From contig NZ_BLJA01000001.1 in NCBI RefSeq assembly GCF_019972295.1, positions 1,657,762 to 1,721,761 on the forward strand: 64,000 nt of DNA, given 5' to 3'. Shown in pieces: positions 51,081 through 60,329 of the stretch (its first letter is position 1; each line of letters begins with the position of its first letter). Source of the stretch: Geobacter sp. AOG2. Lineage in GTDB: Bacteria; Desulfobacterota; Desulfuromonadia; Geobacterales; Pseudopelobacteraceae. Both the position numbers and the translations under genes were made by a program. The notes under the pieces are model-generated. The model worked only from the letters and a program-made list of their open reading frames with translations, was not told where the DNA came from and ran no database searches.

Positions 51081-51621
51081 CCGTGAACAACTGAAAAAGA
51101 TCATCCTGGAACTGTCCTATGAAAAACGGCTTGTGACCTTGGCTTCGGGCCGGCAGAGCGATTTCTACTTCGACGGCAAGCAGACCACCTTGCACGCGGA
51201 AGGCGGCTTTCTGGTGGGCAAACTTTTCTACGAGGCGATCAAGGATGTGGAAGGTGTTGAAGCGGTAGGCGGCATCACCCTAGGGGCCGACCCCATAGCC
51301 ACAGCCACCTCGATCGCCGCCCATCTGGACGGTAAAAGAATGCATGCCTTCATCATCCGCAAGGAGCCCAAGGGGCACGGTACCGGCCAGTGGCTGGAGG
51401 GGCGCAAGAATCTGCCCCCCGGGACCGGTGTGGTTATTGTCGAGGACGTGGTCACCACCGGCGGTTCCTCCATGAAGGCCGTACGCCGGGCGGAAGAGGA
51501 AGGGCTGAAGGTACTGGGCATCGTCACCCTGGTTGACCGCGAGGAGGGCGGCCGGGAAAATATTGAGGCCGAAGGTTTCTGGTTGAAAACCATTTTCACA
51601 AGGTCTGAACTCGTCGCTTAA
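51073..51621 (+). CDS. pyrE: Orotate phosphoribosyltransferase
   Basis: A 182-residue type I PRTase. It has the PRPP motif [18 protein letters not shown] and the conserved [15 protein letters not shown] and [15 protein letters not shown]. It forms OMP from orotate and PRPP. Its start lies inside purF and its stop overlaps the next start (TAATG), so purF, pyrE and the tlyA fusion are tightly coupled. Confidence 0.95.
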
Positions 51622-52715
51622 TGGTGGTAAAAGATCGCCTTGATAAGCTGATGGTCACCCGCGGCCTGGCCCCTTCTCGTGAAAAGGCCCAGGCTCTCAT
51701 CATGGCCGGCCAGGTGGTGGTGGGAGATCATGCAGCCGACAAGGCCGGGCAGCAGGTAAGCGCGGATGCCGAGATCCGCATCAAGGGGGAGGTTCTCCCC
51801 TATGTGGGCCGGGGTGGTCTCAAGCTCAGGAAGGCGCTGGATGAATTCGGCGTCGATGTCGGCGGTCTGGTTGCCATAGATGTGGGGGCATCCACCGGCG
51901 GCTTCACCGACTGTCTGTTGCAGTCTGGAGCGCGCAAAGTTTTTGCCGTGGACGTGGGCTACGGCCAGTTGGCTTGGAAACTGCGTCAGGATTCCAGGGT
52001 CATCAACCTTGAGAAGACCAATGTCCGTTATCTTGCCCCGGACCGGCTCGATGAGGTCCCGGCACTGGCGGTCATCGATGCCTCCTTTATCTCCCTAGGT
52101 AAGGTCCTGCCGGCCGTGGCCGGGCTTGTCAGGCCAGGCGGCCGCATCATTGCCCTGATCAAACCGCAGTTCGAAGTGGGTCGGGGCGAGGTGGGGAAGG
52201 GGGGGATCGTCCGTGACCCGGCTGCGCATGAAAAGGCTGTCGCCGGAGTCCGGCAGGCTGCGACGGAGTTGGGTATCCGGGTGTGCGGGGTGTGCGATTC
52301 TCCCATTCTGGGCGCGGACGGCAACCGGGAGTTTCTGATATTGTTAGCGCTACCGGAGGATATGAATATGGAGCAGCAATGCCTGTTTTGCAAAATTATC
52401 GACGGTGATATTCCGGCAACCAAGGTGTATGAAGACGAGTTCATGGTGGCAATCGAGGATATTGCTCCCAAGGCCCCCCTGCACCTGTTGCTGATCCCGA
52501 AACGCCATTTTTCCAACTGCCTTGATATGGCCGAAGGGGACGCTTCGCGGGTTGGTCACCTGTTTCGAATCGCCGGGGAGCTTGCCCGCCAGAAGGGTTT
52601 TGATGAACGCGGATTTCGGATAGTTCAGAACAACGGTGAGGGGGCCGGGCAATCGGTCTTCCACATCCACTTTCATCTTTTGGCTGGGCGCGATTTCACT
52701 TGGCCTCCCGGGTAA
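51621..52715 (+). CDS. TlyA-family rRNA 2'-O-methyltransferase fused in frame to a HIT-domain protein
   Basis: A 364-residue fusion. Residues 1-~245 form a TlyA/hemolysin A-type methyltransferase: an S4 domain (RLDKLMVTRGLAPSREKAQ), the FtsJ-like SAM motif VAIDVGASTGGFTDCLLQ and DVGYGQLAWKLR. Residues ~250-364 are a complete HIT hydrolase: CLFCKIIDGDIPATKVYED, LIPKRH and the catalytic HIHFHLL. No stop separates them. An internal GGAGG (52355-52359) stands 8 bases before an in-frame ATG at 52368, so the HIT protein could also be made alone. TlyA normally ends about here, which suggests loss of a stop codon. Confidence 0.88.
   Translation: MVVKDRLDKLMVTRGLAPSREKAQALIMAGQVVVGDHAADKAGQQVSADAEIRIKGEVLPYVGRGGLKLRKALDEFGVDVGGLVAIDVGASTGGFTDCLLQSGARKVFAVDVGYGQLAWKLRQDSRVINLEKTNVRYLAPDRLDEVPALAVIDASFISLGKVLPAVAGLVRPGGRIIALIKPQFEVGRGEVGKGGIVRDPAAHEKAVAGVRQAATELGIRVCGVCDSPILGADGNREFLILLALPEDMNMEQQCLFCKIIDGDIPATKVYEDEFMVAIEDIAPKAPLHLLLIPKRHFSNCLDMAEGDASRVGHLFRIAGELARQKGFDERGFRIVQNNGEGAGQSVFHIHFHLLAGRDFTWPPG
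52355..52370 (+). promoter_or_regulatory. Internal ribosome site for separate HIT protein
   Basis: GGAGG, 8 bases, ATG (52368), in frame within the TlyA-HIT gene and exactly at the family start of HIT proteins (MEQQCLFCKI). It would give a 115-residue HIT protein from the same mRNA. Confidence 0.5.
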
Positions 52716-53356: not shown

Positions 53357-54655
53357 CTAGAAGGCCAGCAGGTTCTTAATAGCACCGGGTACGGCCATGT
53401 CCATGGTCATGACGAGGGTCATCACGATCATAATCACAACCGTCAGCCAAGCAATCGTGTTGAATATGGGGCCATTGACAAATTTTCCCATGAGTTTGCG
53501 GTCGTTCACCAGGATCTGCATGAAGATCAGAATGAATGGTAACACCGCCCCGTTTACGACCTGGGAAAGAAACATGATCTGGAGAAGTGGCGCCCTGGGG
53601 ATCAGGATCAGACCGGCGCTTATGATGATGATGATGGTAAAGAGCCAGAAAAATTGGGGGGCCCGTTCGAAATCCTTGTCAACGCCCGACTCCCACCCCA
53701 TGCCCTCACAGATATAAAAGGCCGTGGAGAGCGGCAGGATACAGGCTGCAAACAACGACGCATTGAAGAGGCCAAAGGCGAACAACGTGGATGCGTGTCT
53801 GCCCACAAGCGGCTTGAGCGCAAGGGCCGCGTCGGTGGCGGTTTCAACCTTCAAGCCCTGGACATTGATGGTGGCGGCGCAGGCCACCACGATAAAAAAA
53901 GCGACCACAATAGCCATGATGCAGCCAAAGATGACATCCAGGCGCGTAAAGGCATACTGTTCGGCGGTGATCCCCTTCTCCACTACGGCCGACTGCTGGT
54001 AAAACTGCATCCACGGGGCAATGGTGGTTCCGACAAGGCCGACCATGGTCATGGTGAAGGCGCTGTCGGATCGAAACGTCGGGGTAATACTGGCCTTAAG
54101 GATTATGTCCCATTTGGGGCCGGCCATGAAAGCGGCGATGGGATAGGCGACGTAGACCATGCAGGCCACCAGGAAGACCTTCTCCACAGTCTTGTACGAT
54201 CCCTTGACAATGAGCAGCCAGACCACAAGGGCGCTGATGGGAACTGAGGCATACTTGCTGATGCCGAATATTTCGAGGCTGGCTGCGATGCCGGCGAATT
54301 CGGAGATGGAGTTGCCCATATTGGTCAAGAGCAGAGCGATCATCACATAGAAGGTTACCTTGACCCCGAACGACTCGCGGATCAGATCTGCAAGCCCTTT
54401 GCCGGTAACGGCGCCCATGCGGGCGCACATCTCCTGAATCACCACCAGGGCCACCGTGGTGGGAAGCATGGTCCAGAGCAGGTCGTTGCCGTAGTTGGCA
54501 CCGGCCAGGGAGTAGGTCGTGATGCCGCCGGCATCGTTGTCCACATTGGCGGTGATGATACCCGGCCCAAGAATCGCCAGAAACAGCATGATGTTCCGGG
54601 GATTCACGCTTTTAAGCGGCTTGAGGAACCTGAATAAGGATATACCGGTGAACAT
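53357..54655 (-). CDS. Nramp-family divalent metal transporter, probable Mg2+ type (NRMT-like)
   Basis: A 432-residue protein with about 11 TM helices. TM1 is GPGIITANVDNDAGGITTYS, so the usual DPGN metal motif is DAGG here. TM6 reads GTTIAPWMQFYQQ, replacing the conserved MPH with APW; the Met to Ala change removes the soft ligand that prefers Mn/Fe. Such changes are those described for Nramp-related magnesium transporters. The upstream gene in the operon carries MgtE regulatory domains and the transcript begins with a Mg2+ riboswitch, which supports Mg2+ as substrate. Mn2+ or Fe2+ cannot be excluded. Confidence 0.85.
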   Translation of the reverse strand: MFTGISLFRFLKPLKSVNPRNIMLFLAILGPGIITANVDNDAGGITTYSLAGANYGNDLLWTMLPTTVALVVIQEMCARMGAVTGKGLADLIRESFGVKVTFYVMIALLLTNMGNSISEFAGIAASLEIFGISKYASVPISALVVWLLIVKGSYKTVEKVFLVACMVYVAYPIAAFMAGPKWDIILKASITPTFRSDSAFTMTMVGLVGTTIAPWMQFYQQSAVVEKGITAEQYAFTRLDVIFGCIMAIVVAFFIVVACAATINVQGLKVETATDAALALKPLVGRHASTLFAFGLFNASLFAACILPLSTAFYICEGMGWESGVDKDFERAPQFFWLFTIIIIISAGLILIPRAPLLQIMFLSQVVNGAVLPFILIFMQILVNDRKLMGKFVNGPIFNTIAWLTVVIMIVMTLVMTMDMAVPGAIKNLLAF

Positions 54656-54662
54656 TACGTCT

Positions 54663-55922
54663 CTAACCTCTCTTCTTCACCAGGCGAGGCAGATAGTGTG
54701 CAAGGACATCATCAACGGTGACGATCCCCACCATGCGCTGTTCCTCGTCAAGCACCGGCACCGCCGTCAGGTCGTACCGGGTAAGGGTCTCCAAAATCTC
54801 CTCCGGGTCGTCGCCTACGTTTACGCTTTTTATGTTGTCTTCCATGATATCAACGACAAGCTCGTCATCCCGGGAGGCAAGCAACTCCTGAATGCTGAGG
54901 GTGCCTTCCAAGTGTTCGTCGTCGTCCAGGAGATAGGCATAGTTAATATTTTCGATCTCCCCTGCCAGACGGCGCACATCCGCGATGGCCGCGCCCACGG
55001 TATGGTTCAGGGGCAGGGTGAGGAATTCGCTGGTCATGAAACCGCCGGCCGTATCGTCCTCATGCTCCAACAACTCTTCAATCTCTTCCTTCTCCTCATC
55101 ATCCATCAGTTCTAATAGTTGCTGGGCCGTTTCTTCCGACAGGTCGGAGAGAACGTCGGCGGCATCATCCGGGGACATCTCTTCAAGGATGTCCGAGGCA
55201 TGCTCCGCGTCCATCTGGCTGATGACCACGCTGCGCATCTCCGGTTCCAATTCGTAAAGTGTATCACCGGTGGTCTCGGCATCGATGCTGTCCAGCACCG
55301 TCCTGATGTTTTTGATCGGGATCTGCTCGATGATGTCCGCAAGGTCGGCCGGATGGATCTCGTTCATCTGATTGCGGGCAATATTCAGGGCCAGTTTGGA
55401 CGAGTGGGGTTCCAAGGGTTGGACATACTCCCAACTGATCTCGGTATGGGGGATGTCCTTTTTGATCAGCCGCGCCATACTCTCGCCGAACCGTTCGTAT
55501 CCCAAACGGCGCAGCAGTCCGCGAAAGCCGATGTCCACGCTAAATATGCACAGCTTGTCGTGGAGCTTGCCCAGTTTGATATCGTTGACGCGCACCACCT
55601 TGGCTCCGTCCACGTCCACGATCTGCTTGTCCAGAAGGTCGCGGCGCACCAGGATCTCCGCCTCGCGGTAGTCGTAGGCGCACAGGCCGGGCGGGGTGAT
55701 CCCGGACGCCGAGATCACCACATGGGTAAACAGTGATACCTCGTTCCAGGGGAGCGACATCTTGCCCTTGTGCCCCTTGATCACAATGTGCGAAACCTCG
55801 GGAAAGACCTCGCCCGGCACCATGATGAGGTCACGGAGAATGCCGAGCTCTTCGCCCTTGCTGTTGATTACCGAACGGCCAATGACGGCGCTTAGGTATA
55901 TTTCGCTATATTCCGTGTTCAT
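54663..55922 (-). CDS. Soluble PRC-barrel / MgtE_N / CBS-pair protein
   Basis: A 419-residue protein with no TM helix. It has a PRC-barrel-like N-terminal half with two repeats (LSAVIGRSVINSKGEELGILRDLIM; KQIVDVDGAKVVRVNDIKLG), then an MgtE_N superhelix (HPADLADIIEQIP, MDAEHASDILEEMSPDDAADVLSDL, acidic DDEEKEEIEELLE), then two CBS domains (MTSEFLTLPLNH..; NVGDDPEEILETLTRYDLTAVPVLDE). This is the Mg2+-sensing cytoplasmic module of MgtE without its channel. It lies 7 bp before the Nramp gene and behind an M-box, so it is a candidate regulatory subunit of that transporter. Confidence 0.9.
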   Translation of the reverse strand: MNTEYSEIYLSAVIGRSVINSKGEELGILRDLIMVPGEVFPEVSHIVIKGHKGKMSLPWNEVSLFTHVVISASGITPPGLCAYDYREAEILVRRDLLDKQIVDVDGAKVVRVNDIKLGKLHDKLCIFSVDIGFRGLLRRLGYERFGESMARLIKKDIPHTEISWEYVQPLEPHSSKLALNIARNQMNEIHPADLADIIEQIPIKNIRTVLDSIDAETTGDTLYELEPEMRSVVISQMDAEHASDILEEMSPDDAADVLSDLSEETAQQLLELMDDEEKEEIEELLEHEDDTAGGFMTSEFLTLPLNHTVGAAIADVRRLAGEIENINYAYLLDDDEHLEGTLSIQELLASRDDELVVDIMEDNIKSVNVGDDPEEILETLTRYDLTAVPVLDEEQRMVGIVTVDDVLAHYLPRLVKKRG

Positions 55923-55941
55923 GATGGCAACCTCGCGAAAT

Positions 55942-55972
55942 AAAAAAAGGCCCTTTCGGAGAAAGGGCCTTT
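55942..55972 (-). terminator. Expression-platform terminator of the M-box riboswitch
   Basis: AAAGGCCCTTTC-TCCG-AAAGGGCCTTT followed by a run of T on the minus strand, just before the start of the PRC/MgtE_N/CBS gene. Confidence 0.85.
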
Positions 55973-55989
55973 GGCGCGCGCAAAGAAAC

Positions 55990-56153
55990 CATTTCCCCAC
56001 TGGTTGACTTTCGGCAGTGCACAACGTAGGTTGATAAACCAGCTACCTTAGGTAAAGCCTTAGGCCGACAATACCTGGTCTACCCATTGGCGTCTTTCGA
56101 CATTTTTGGGCAGTAGCCTGTGTTTGTGCAAACGCCTCTGCTAACGAGGAACT
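55990..56153 (-). promoter_or_regulatory. M-box (ykoK) magnesium riboswitch aptamer
   Basis: The minus strand carries the conserved M-box core: CGTTAGCAGAGGC, then ACAGGCTACTGCCCAAAAATG, then GTCGAAAGACGCCAATGGGT, later CTAAGGC and ACCTAAGGTAGC, and GCACTGCCGAAAGTC. The first helix (TTCCTC with GGGGAA near 55992-55998) closes the aptamer. An intrinsic terminator follows, so high Mg2+ should stop transcription. It controls the soluble MgtE-like gene and the Nramp-type transporter. Confidence 0.93.
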
Positions 56154-56159
56154 TTAATC

Positions 56160-56188
56160 ATATAATCCAAAAGAAAATTGTTTGTCAA
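56160..56188 (-). promoter_or_regulatory. Promoter of the M-box operon
   Basis: On the minus strand a perfect TTGACA (56183-56188) is followed after 17 bases by TTATAT (56160-56165). Transcription would start near 56153, at the 5' edge of the aptamer. Confidence 0.75.
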
Positions 56189-56294
56189 CACGCAAAAGCC
56201 TCCTCACGGTGAAAAAGACGTTACGGAATAATTACCGTTTCGTGACACAGGATATGATTTCCCTTTCATCGTTGATTTTGCTATGATTGACACC

Positions 56295-56753
56295 ATGGGT
56301 GAGAAACTGATCTGCAACAACAAGAAGGCCTACCATGAATATTTTATCGAGGAAAAGCTGGAAGCCGGGGTGGTGCTTCAGGGGACCGAGGTAAAATCGC
56401 TACGGTGCGGCAACGTCAACCTGACCGACTCCTTCATGCTGATTCGCGAAGGTGAGGCCTTTCTGCACAACCTGCATATCGCGCCCTATGACTTCGGCAA
56501 CCGCGCGAACCACCAACCGGATCGCCAGCGCAAACTGCTCCTGCACCGCAAGGAGATCACCCGGCTTTACGGCAGGGTCAGGGAGCAGGGCTATTCGGTC
56601 ATACCGCTCAGGCTCTATTTCAAGGATGGCTTGGTGAAGGTGGAGATTGGTCTTGCCAAAGGTAAGAAACTGTACGATAAACGTGAAGACTTGAAGAAGA
56701 AGGACACGCAACGCGAAATGTCCCAAGCCCTGAAGTCGAGAAACAGGGCGTAA
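56295..56753 (+). CDS. smpB: SsrA-binding protein SmpB
   Basis: A 152-residue tmRNA partner. It begins MGEKLICNNKKAYHEYFIEE, then LQGTEVKSLR, LHNLHIAPYDFGN, RKLLLHRKEITRL and GLAKGKKLYDKREDLKKKD. It binds the tRNA-like end of ssrA and takes it into stalled ribosomes. An ATG four codons upstream (56283) is also possible; neither has a clear ribosome site. The ssrA gene follows directly. Confidence 0.95.
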   Translation: MGEKLICNNKKAYHEYFIEEKLEAGVVLQGTEVKSLRCGNVNLTDSFMLIREGEAFLHNLHIAPYDFGNRANHQPDRQRKLLLHRKEITRLYGRVREQGYSVIPLRLYFKDGLVKVEIGLAKGKKLYDKREDLKKKDTQREMSQALKSRNRA

Positions 56754-59633: not shown

Positions 59634-60329
59634 ATGCCAGTAACCGCTCATAACGAAAAGCATTTTACCGCATCGGATACGGTTCGGGATGTTGTTATCG
59701 GCATGTCCGACGGTTTAACGGTCCCGTTCGCGCTCGCCGCCGGATTGTCGGGAGCTGTTGATTCCACCGGGCTCATTATCATTGCCGGTCTCGCGGAGAT
59801 AGCGGCGGGCGCGATTGCGATGGGCCTGGGCGGATATCTGGCGGCTAAAACCGATGCGGAACATTTTATTGCCGAATTGGCCCGGGAAGAACGCGAGACG
59901 TATGAAGTCCCTGAGAGCGAGGCGGAAGAGGTCGCCCAGGTTTTTCGAAATTACGGGCTTTCGGAGGAGACAGTGACGACCGTTGTGGGCGCCATCCGTT
60001 CGGACCGCACGCGTTGGGTGGACTTCATGATGAAATTCGAATTGGGGCTTGAGGAGCCGGATCCCCGCCGGGCTCGAAGCAGCGCTCTGACCATTGCTCT
60101 TTCGTACGTGGCCGGTGGGTTGGTACCGCTGGCCCCCTATTTTTTCCTGCGCTCCGTGCATGCCGCTTTGGTCGGTTCCATGATTGTTACACTGCTTGCC
60201 TTATTCGTGTTTGGCTTTGTCAAAGGTCGCTTCACCACCAGCCGTCCGGTACGGAGTGCCTGGCAAACCGTCCTGGTTGGGGGGATTGCGGCAGCGGCCG
60301 CTTTTGGTATAGCAAAACTCATTGGCTAA
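59634..60329 (+). CDS. VIT/CCC1-family membrane transporter
   Basis: A 231-residue protein with five TM helices. TM1 carries VIGMSDGLTVPFALAAGL, and TM2 continues into AAGAIAMGLGGYLAAKTDAEH, typical of VIT1/CCC1 iron/manganese transporters. An acidic cytoplasmic segment (about 78-135, EREEERETYE-like Glu clusters) corresponds to the metal-binding domain. It probably exports or stores Fe2+/Mn2+; direction and metal are inferred. AGGTG lies before the ATG. Confidence 0.85.
   Translation: MPVTAHNEKHFTASDTVRDVVIGMSDGLTVPFALAAGLSGAVDSTGLIIIAGLAEIAAGAIAMGLGGYLAAKTDAEHFIAELAREERETYEVPESEAEEVAQVFRNYGLSEETVTTVVGAIRSDRTRWVDFMMKFELGLEEPDPRRARSSALTIALSYVAGGLVPLAPYFFLRSVHAALVGSMIVTLLALFVFGFVKGRFTTSRPVRSAWQTVLVGGIAAAAAFGIAKLIG

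Follow-up and report, generated by a model that had tools for sequence, protein, structure and literature searches.

The locus

The 64,000-nucleotide stretch of the Geobacter sp. AOG2 genome analysed here (the window) carries, on its reverse strand, a two-gene operon behind an M-box, the Mg2+ riboswitch also known as the ykoK leader. The first gene encodes a soluble protein that resembles the cytosolic Mg2+ sensor of the channel MgtE (hereafter the partner); 7 bp beyond its stop codon lies the open reading frame (ORF) of an NRMT, a transporter of the Nramp family. Table 1 gives the coordinates. The whole is very probably a Mg2+-repressed Mg2+ uptake operon; repression through the M-box and Mg2+ uptake by the NRMT would both follow from established work on these classes.

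NRMTs are a described class of Mg2+ importers. Shin et al. (2014) reported M-boxes that lead Nramp-related genes, for the most part in Clostridia and Deltaproteobacteria, and named the products NrmT; next to most of these genes is one whose product is homologous to the N-terminal cytoplasmic domain of MgtE (PMC4072509). The arrangement of M-box, partner, and NRMT is therefore already described. The job of the MgtE-like neighbour was left open by this class-naming paper, whose account of the fragment proposes either cytoplasmic feedback or chaperoning (PMC4072509). The evidence assembled below suggests that the partner probably regulates the transporter.

Table 1. Features of the operon in the window (aa, amino acids)
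Feature	Coordinates	Strand	Basis
Candidate promoter	56160..56188	-	TTGACA at 56188-56183, read from sequence
M-box (ykoK leader) Mg2+ riboswitch aptamer	55989..56155	-	RF00380
Intrinsic terminator of the riboswitch expression platform	55946..55972	-	12 pairs and T tail
MgtE-sensor-like partner ORF, 419 aa	54663..55922	-	
NRMT transporter ORF, 432 aa	53357..54655	-	

The transporter

The transporter matches the Nramp family (PF01566, E 1.2e-102, Pfam). A preliminary description of the locus, made from the sequence alone, had noted DAGG in transmembrane helix (TM) 1 and APW in TM6. The alignment confirms both as metal-site motifs: D41-A-G-G44 and T210-T-I-A213-P-W215. This is the NRMT signature, DxxG in TM1 and TxxA/T in TM6, which replaces DxxN and A/CxxM. 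The TM6 methionine is gone, the two TM6b positions that hold proton-coupling histidines are occupied by W215 and Q220, and the conserved TM3 glutamate is E119. In the account of NRMTs given in PMC8806188, DxxG with TxxA/T is the hallmark of the class, the site gains room for hydrated Mg2+ through the Met-to-Ala and Asn-to-Gly changes, and H+ coupling is absent where the TM6b histidines are lost.

The closest solved structure is EleNRMT (7QIA; E 1.1e-121, 49% identity in the alignment), with MntH chains at 1e-29 or weaker. Tree placement, set beforehand as a test, likewise put the transporter among the NRMTs, EleNRMT included, and not with MntH: in a tree of 91 rows the split has 100% support in the Shimodaira-Hasegawa-like approximate likelihood ratio test (SH-aLRT). 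This tree is a quick search with flagged long branches, including that of EleNRMT itself, whose place inside the clade is unsure. Together, the metal-site signature and the likeness to EleNRMT suggest that the transporter would import Mg2+ without H+ coupling.

A second Nramp protein of the genome, a separate canonical MntH, has DPGN and MPH motifs and groups with MntH in the tree. Mg2+ has other candidate routes besides the NRMT, since the genome also gives one match each to CorA and to P-type cation ATPases. A search of the whole source genome for the MgtE membrane domain (PF01769) gave no match.

The leader RNA

The M-box and terminator were correctly recognized at the outset. The RF00380 covariance model matches a full aptamer (model positions 1-169) at 151.5 bits, against a gathering threshold of 44 (E 1.5e-34). 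The promoter, described at first as strong, is supported in part: the -35 element TTGACA is perfect, but the -10 element is imperfect (TTATAT with a 17-bp spacer, or TATATG with an 18-bp spacer), and a consensus promoter scan of positions 55850-56320 found no site passing its rule.

The terminator alone has a predicted fold of -17.7 kcal/mol. When the leader transcript is truncated before the terminator 3' arm, the predicted fold contains an antiterminator of -15.4 kcal/mol, in which the 3' strand of aptamer stem P1 (GGGGAAA) pairs with UUUCUCC of the terminator 5' arm and loop. The expression platform is predicted, from these folds, to trade terminator against antiterminator, with the OFF logic expected of an M-box. 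A simple scan of 14 related loci found a terminator-like stem within 140 bases of the M-box in eight and none in six.

The partner

The first protein of the operon had been described as a soluble PRC-barrel, MgtE_N, and CBS protein without membrane helices, and so it proves. Pfam matches are PRC (26.5 bits; cut-off 21.2), MgtE_N (90.1 bits), and CBS (55.5 bits), arranged as PRC1 (about residues 7-80), PRC2 (about 90-170), MgtE_N (189-290), and a CBS pair (about 291-410). Pfam finds no membrane domain in it, PF01769 included, and no 19-residue stretch reaches a Kyte-Doolittle value of 1.6 (maximum 1.25). Its score against TIGR00400, the MgtE equivalog, is 185.6, under the cut-off of 232.75.

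An AlphaFold2 model built from 62 rows has a mean predicted local distance difference test score (pLDDT) of 82.4 and a predicted template modelling score (pTM) of 0.49; the domains are therefore trusted above their arrangement. For the C-terminal half, superposition on the cytosolic domains of MgtE gives Z 24.5-26.5, and Foldseek E-values go down to 2.9e-22. Modelled alone (pLDDT 86.0, pTM 0.81), the N-terminal 178 residues match the tandem PRC proteins CdpB1/CdpB2 (8qzo; Z 12.1 over 128 residues), with single PRC barrels, RimM and the reaction-centre H subunit included, at Z 6.7 or below. PRC1 and PRC2 are related to one another (hhalign, 85%). In the photosynthetic reaction centre, the PRC barrel of the H subunit caps the cytoplasmic side.

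Pairing of the two genes

How constant is the pair? In 146 genomes of the class, an NRMT was called at E <1e-40 and a partner was counted when full-length; tallies were made by hand from the matches listed, which do not include all of the weakest. An NRMT is present in 41 genomes and a full-length partner in the same 41, so that at these thresholds all 146 genomes have both genes or neither. There are 47 partner genes, and 46 adjoin a transporter on the same strand; in two of these cases the transporter is partial (at a contig end in G064, a 140-aa piece in G104). The partner comes first in 42 of the 47. A second type, with 30-35% identity to the window partner, is made up of five partner genes: four stand after the transporter, and the fifth, in G109, does not share a contig with the transporter piece.

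M-box counts in these genomes came from stricter filters, which lose weak matches. The 54 found comprise 29 before partner-first operons (29 of 42 such operons), four about 0.3-0.5 kb ahead of nrmT-first operons (four of the five second-type operons), and 21 elsewhere; at these strict filters none was found in G109, the fifth second-type genome.

The MgtE membrane domain (PF01769) occurs in one of the 41 NRMT genomes versus 70 of the other 105, and 40 of the 41 genomes with a partner are thus without MgtE itself. This was rejected as independent support for the pairing. All 70 MgtE genomes lie outside the order of the window genome, and shared descent explains the absence because members of the order without NRMT also have no MgtE.

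Beyond the class, we used the best 80 of 586 confirmed loci, from many phyla, with transporters 53-83% identical to the window protein. Motif conservation in this set is partly built in, because the loci were retrieved with the motifs themselves. Full flanks, of 1.5 kb or more to either side of the transporter, are available for 62 loci, and in 56 of these the partner is beside the transporter (52 before, two after, two convergent). The other six genomes (L106, L107, L124, L135, L153, L154) have a full-length partner match outside the flanks, the one in L135 counting one stop codon; at L106 and L107 the M-box precedes nrmT alone. The partner is likewise elsewhere in the genome for L115 and L144, which have short downstream flanks. 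Eight further loci are cut by contig ends: the partner was found in four of these genomes, and no partner was found at E 1e-30 in the other four, one of which, L102, has a 100-aa partner piece at the end of the locus.

Both the adjacency in other genomes and the two-part nature of the system, as first proposed, are thereby borne out. Moreover, these counts turn the "often adjacent" of earlier work into a near-obligate pairing, kept when the gene order changes and even when the genes are unlinked.

Among the 80 loci no frame holding both genes was seen, a count that leaves out the long frames at L102, L087, and L092. Transporter frames above 500 aa occur at L132 (786 aa, an overlong start overlapping the partner frame) and L102 (576 aa), and partner frames above 520 aa at L087 and L092; at L155 the transporter frame is interrupted close to its beginning. 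Three loci (L063:1465-3201, L064:1836-3662, and L065:1951-3867) have NRMT-like open frames of 599-641 aa. Their metal site is changed (NDAS in TM1, TISPY in TM6), and their N-terminus carries an extension of about 150-200 aa that looks soluble and belongs to no clear family. They were considered as partner-transporter fusions and rejected: the extension is unlike PRC1 and PRC2 (hhalign probability 0.3 and 0.7%), and a PRC match appears in one of the three only, at a Pfam E of 0.022, under the cut-off.

Upstream of four loci lie PyrR-site matches on the opposite strand. As another regulatory RNA for operons that have no M-box they were rejected, since in the three loci read (L099, L121, L126) the sites belong to a divergent operon whose first gene looks, by eye, pyrR-like.

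Mg2+ sites and conserved residues

Conservation was read from 62 partner rows (the 80-locus set plus the window), of which 14 come with an M-box and 48 without; four rows of the second type bring the total to 66, and ten full-length MgtE sequences served as controls. Residues of the Mg2+ sites of Thermus MgtE follow PMC5882242 and those of the MgtE ATP site follow PMC5529423, as given there. The window partner has Asp at the positions of D91, D95, D226, and D247, and also at that of E59. D95, of site Mg6, is Asp in 14/14 M-box rows, 48/48 other rows, and 4/4 second-type rows; the MgtE controls have Asp in seven and Glu in three. The D91/D247 pair of site Mg4 is D/D in all 14 M-box rows and in 33 of the 48 rows without M-box, and the second type has Ala at the first position and Asp at the second (4/4 each). 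At D226, of site Mg5, the M-box rows have Asp (8/14) or Asn (6/14), and the others have Asp in only 4/48. We take G136, D214, E216, and A223 to be further MgtE site residues.

At four ATP-site positions the window partner has other residues, with Q for R187, E for both D188 and N203, and L for F227; the F227 position is Leu in 12 of the 14 M-box rows. Loss of this site was rejected as a mark of the partner, because the ten MgtE controls are also without F227 (Ile in eight, Leu in two), D188, N203, and V207.

The two proteins differ at the C-terminus. All 66 partner rows end 4-25 residues past Thermus position 249, and the MgtE controls 202-203 past it; therefore most of the plug helix is missing from the partner.

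Fourteen residues are invariant over the 62 rows. Eight lie in PRC2 (D98, Q100, D103, R111, D114, D130, R138, and R139), and the remainder include two in MgtE_N and three in CBS. The commonest residue reaches a mean frequency of 0.39 in PRC1, 0.56 in whole PRC2, 0.59 in MgtE_N, 0.55 in CBS1, and 0.49 in CBS2; the core of PRC2 (96-145), at 0.64, has the highest regional conservation in the protein.

A model and its alternatives

These observations suggest a model of doubly controlled Mg2+ uptake, to which we give a probability of about 0.6: the M-box would act as an OFF switch on the RNA, and a detached MgtE sensor would inhibit the NRMT by docking. At high cytoplasmic Mg2+ the aptamer should fold, as judged by homology and predicted folding, so that P1 holds back the antiterminator strand and the terminator could then form ahead of the coding genes. 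The NRMT would import Mg2+ uncoupled from H+. The soluble partner may dock on the cytoplasmic face of the NRMT, and Mg2+ filling the acidic MgtE_N/CBS interface of the docked partner would lower NRMT activity. PRC2 is proposed as the dock because most of the invariant residues lie there, and the cytoplasmic cap that a PRC barrel forms on the reaction centre speaks for such a placement; it would replace the plug helix by which MgtE keeps its own membrane domain shut.

Several observations weigh against this model. Published NrmT proteins work alone: Ca_c0685 and Ca_c3329 gave Mg2+ rescue in Bacillus subtilis without the fragment (PMC4072509). Co-expression of the fragment of the Acidobacterium capsulatum pair gave no further rescue (PMC4072509); this null is not decisive, because improved rescue is not expected of a feedback inhibitor. 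The Mg4 pair is S/N or S/S in 15 of the 48 rows without M-box. These 15 sit in one tree branch, Syntrophaceae and kin, so the loss may be one event, and for the same reason the M-box was rejected as a predictor of an intact Mg4 site. D226 is not Asp in 44 of the 48 rows without M-box; yet it is Asn in all ten MgtE controls. A gapless extension puts K416 and K417 of the partner at the plug-helix Mg2/Mg3 residues E258 and D259. The best-conserved block of 15 residues (241-255, 0.72) is in MgtE_N, outside PRC2. The genomes of L086, L088, and L098, where the transporter is at a contig end, gave no partner at E 1e-30. Finally, an M-box was found in just 15 of 69 scanned loci (11 of the 80 were left out, contigs cutting their upstream side), and the pair is therefore not tied to the M-box. 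The preliminary description had the CBS protein gate, or sense for, the Nramp protein. Its pairing half is well supported; the gating half stays conditional in view of NrmT proteins that work without a partner, and it is not new, Shin et al. having already proposed feedback.

The same evidence bears on other roles for the partner. It might serve in assembly, stability, or targeting of the NRMT, with the PRC barrels docking and the MgtE-like half structural, without Mg2+ gating. The excess of invariant residues in PRC2 over MgtE_N and CBS, the absence of most of the plug helix, and the clade of 15 rows with a replaced Mg4 would all fit such a factor. We nevertheless consider it rather unlikely: the published NrmT proteins function without it in B. 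subtilis, Asp is kept at D95 in all 66 rows, and MgtE_N is on average no less conserved than whole PRC2. A soluble buffer for Mg2+ or other divalent ions, a chaperone, or a sensor that acts elsewhere than on the transporter is an unlikely reading too, and slightly more so. A net charge of -48 would suit a buffer, chaperone activity was suggested by Shin et al. (PMC4072509), and in three genomes (L106, L107, L153) the 7 kb around the unlinked partner shows no NRMT gene. A protein with business elsewhere is hard to square, however, with two genes that are both present or both absent throughout the class, and that adjoin in either order, even convergently.

A different doubt concerns the metal. 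The transporter could carry Mn2+ or Fe2+, with the M-box merely coupling it to Mg2+ status. Indeed, the A. capsulatum transporter, from a pair without an M-box, rescued a mutant defective in Mn2+ transport and looks Mn2+-specific (PMC4072509), and EleNRMT moves Mn2+ as well in vitro (PMC8806188). Against this stand the M-box over the window operon, the NRMT signature with the TM6 Met and both TM6b His gone, and the separate canonical MntH of the genome, which together make a Mn2+ or Fe2+ importer very unlikely here.

Returning to docking and feedback, we see even odds for a broader proposition: that the MgtE Mg2+ sensor is a detachable, trans-acting gate, carried by tandem PRC barrels as a standing feedback regulator of an unrelated transporter of the LeuT fold. 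If so, one Mg2+ switch would control two unrelated membrane machines, through a plug helix in one and through PRC-mediated docking in the other. The counts point to PRC2 as one surface to mutate. The Syntrophaceae-and-kin branch, with its replaced Mg2+ site, offers a comparative handle on gating.

Other M-box loci and neighbouring genes

Ten of the 21 class M-boxes away from NRMT operons were inspected. Four (L171, L172, L177, and L178, in G068, G127, G113, and G096) lie about 0.4 kb upstream of an ATP-binding cassette (ABC) transporter operon, whose products are a protein of 578-580 aa that contains two permease domains and an ATPase of 437 aa whose C-terminal domain is AAA_assoc_C (Pfam: L172, and the L171 permease). 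The permease occurs in five of the 146 class genomes, four of them with the M-box. This operon is a candidate for a Mg2+-controlled ABC importer; a narrow check of open-licence literature found no paper on it.

Three further M-boxes (L173, L174, and L176, in G133, G078, and G038) control CorA-type proteins of 427-438 aa; in the one scanned, at L174, the CorA domain is preceded by a weak MgtE_N-like segment (20.8 bits, under the cut-off of 25.9). A Pelotomaculum metagenome-assembled genome has an M-box, a CorA-like gene (by eye), a partner, and an NRMT consecutively (L147:2142-6018). A frame of 1177 aa (L187:1128-4661) in G150, the genome that also holds L143, is rich in hydrophobic stretches and carries an MgtE_N/CBS region towards its end.

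Upstream of the window operon, and divergent from it, lie smpB (named by eye) and the tmRNA gene. A VIT-family (Fe/Mn) membrane protein is encoded a few kb from the operon (59634-60329, forward strand). On the same strand, at 51621-52715, a TlyA-type rRNA methyltransferase (S4 and FtsJ) is fused in frame to a HIT-domain protein. Among 20 relatives, source genome included, 11 match both parts in one stretch, eight of these stop-free; eight others match the TlyA and HIT parts separately, as neighbours in six; and G104 matched the TlyA methyltransferase part only.

Comparison with known systems

Literature joining these elements is sparse. Among open-licence papers since 2015, NRMT and MgtE occur together only in PMC8806188; the five uses of MgtE in its main text refer to a known channel and none to a neighbour, and the words operon, riboswitch, and CBS do not occur in that main text. 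No open-licence paper since 2015 was found that joins NRMT, MgtE, and CBS, nor was any open-licence paper found that matches even three of MgtE_N, PRC-barrel, CBS, and NRAMP.

The closest described systems are the M-box, MgtE-N-like, and NrmT operons of Clostridium acetobutylicum (Ca_c0685, Ca_c3329) in the account of Shin et al., where riboswitch class and gene pair are the same as here. The partner of the window is one gene with two leading PRC barrels, whereas the Ca_c0685 operon has two split genes (PMC4072509); the main text of Shin et al. never uses the words PRC or CBS.

EleNRMT of Eggerthella lenta (7QIA, 7QIC, and two entries with the same chain) and the window transporter have in common the DxxG-TxxA site, Trp at the first TM6b His position, and the conserved TM3 Glu. 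At the second TM6b His position the window transporter has Gln and EleNRMT has Asn.

CdpB1 and CdpB2, which resemble the N-terminal half of the partner, have a role in cell division. At about 150-170 residues, these archaeal proteins (8qzo, Archaeoglobus fulgidus) have no room for MgtE_N and CBS; identity is 19%.

The cytosolic domain of MgtE (2yvy, 2oux, 8gpv) has the same MgtE_N and CBS pair as the partner, at 22-34% identity, and several of its Mg2+-site residues are kept. Unlike MgtE, the partner has no membrane domain, ends at approximately the start of the plug helix, and bears an extra, N-terminal tandem of PRC barrels.

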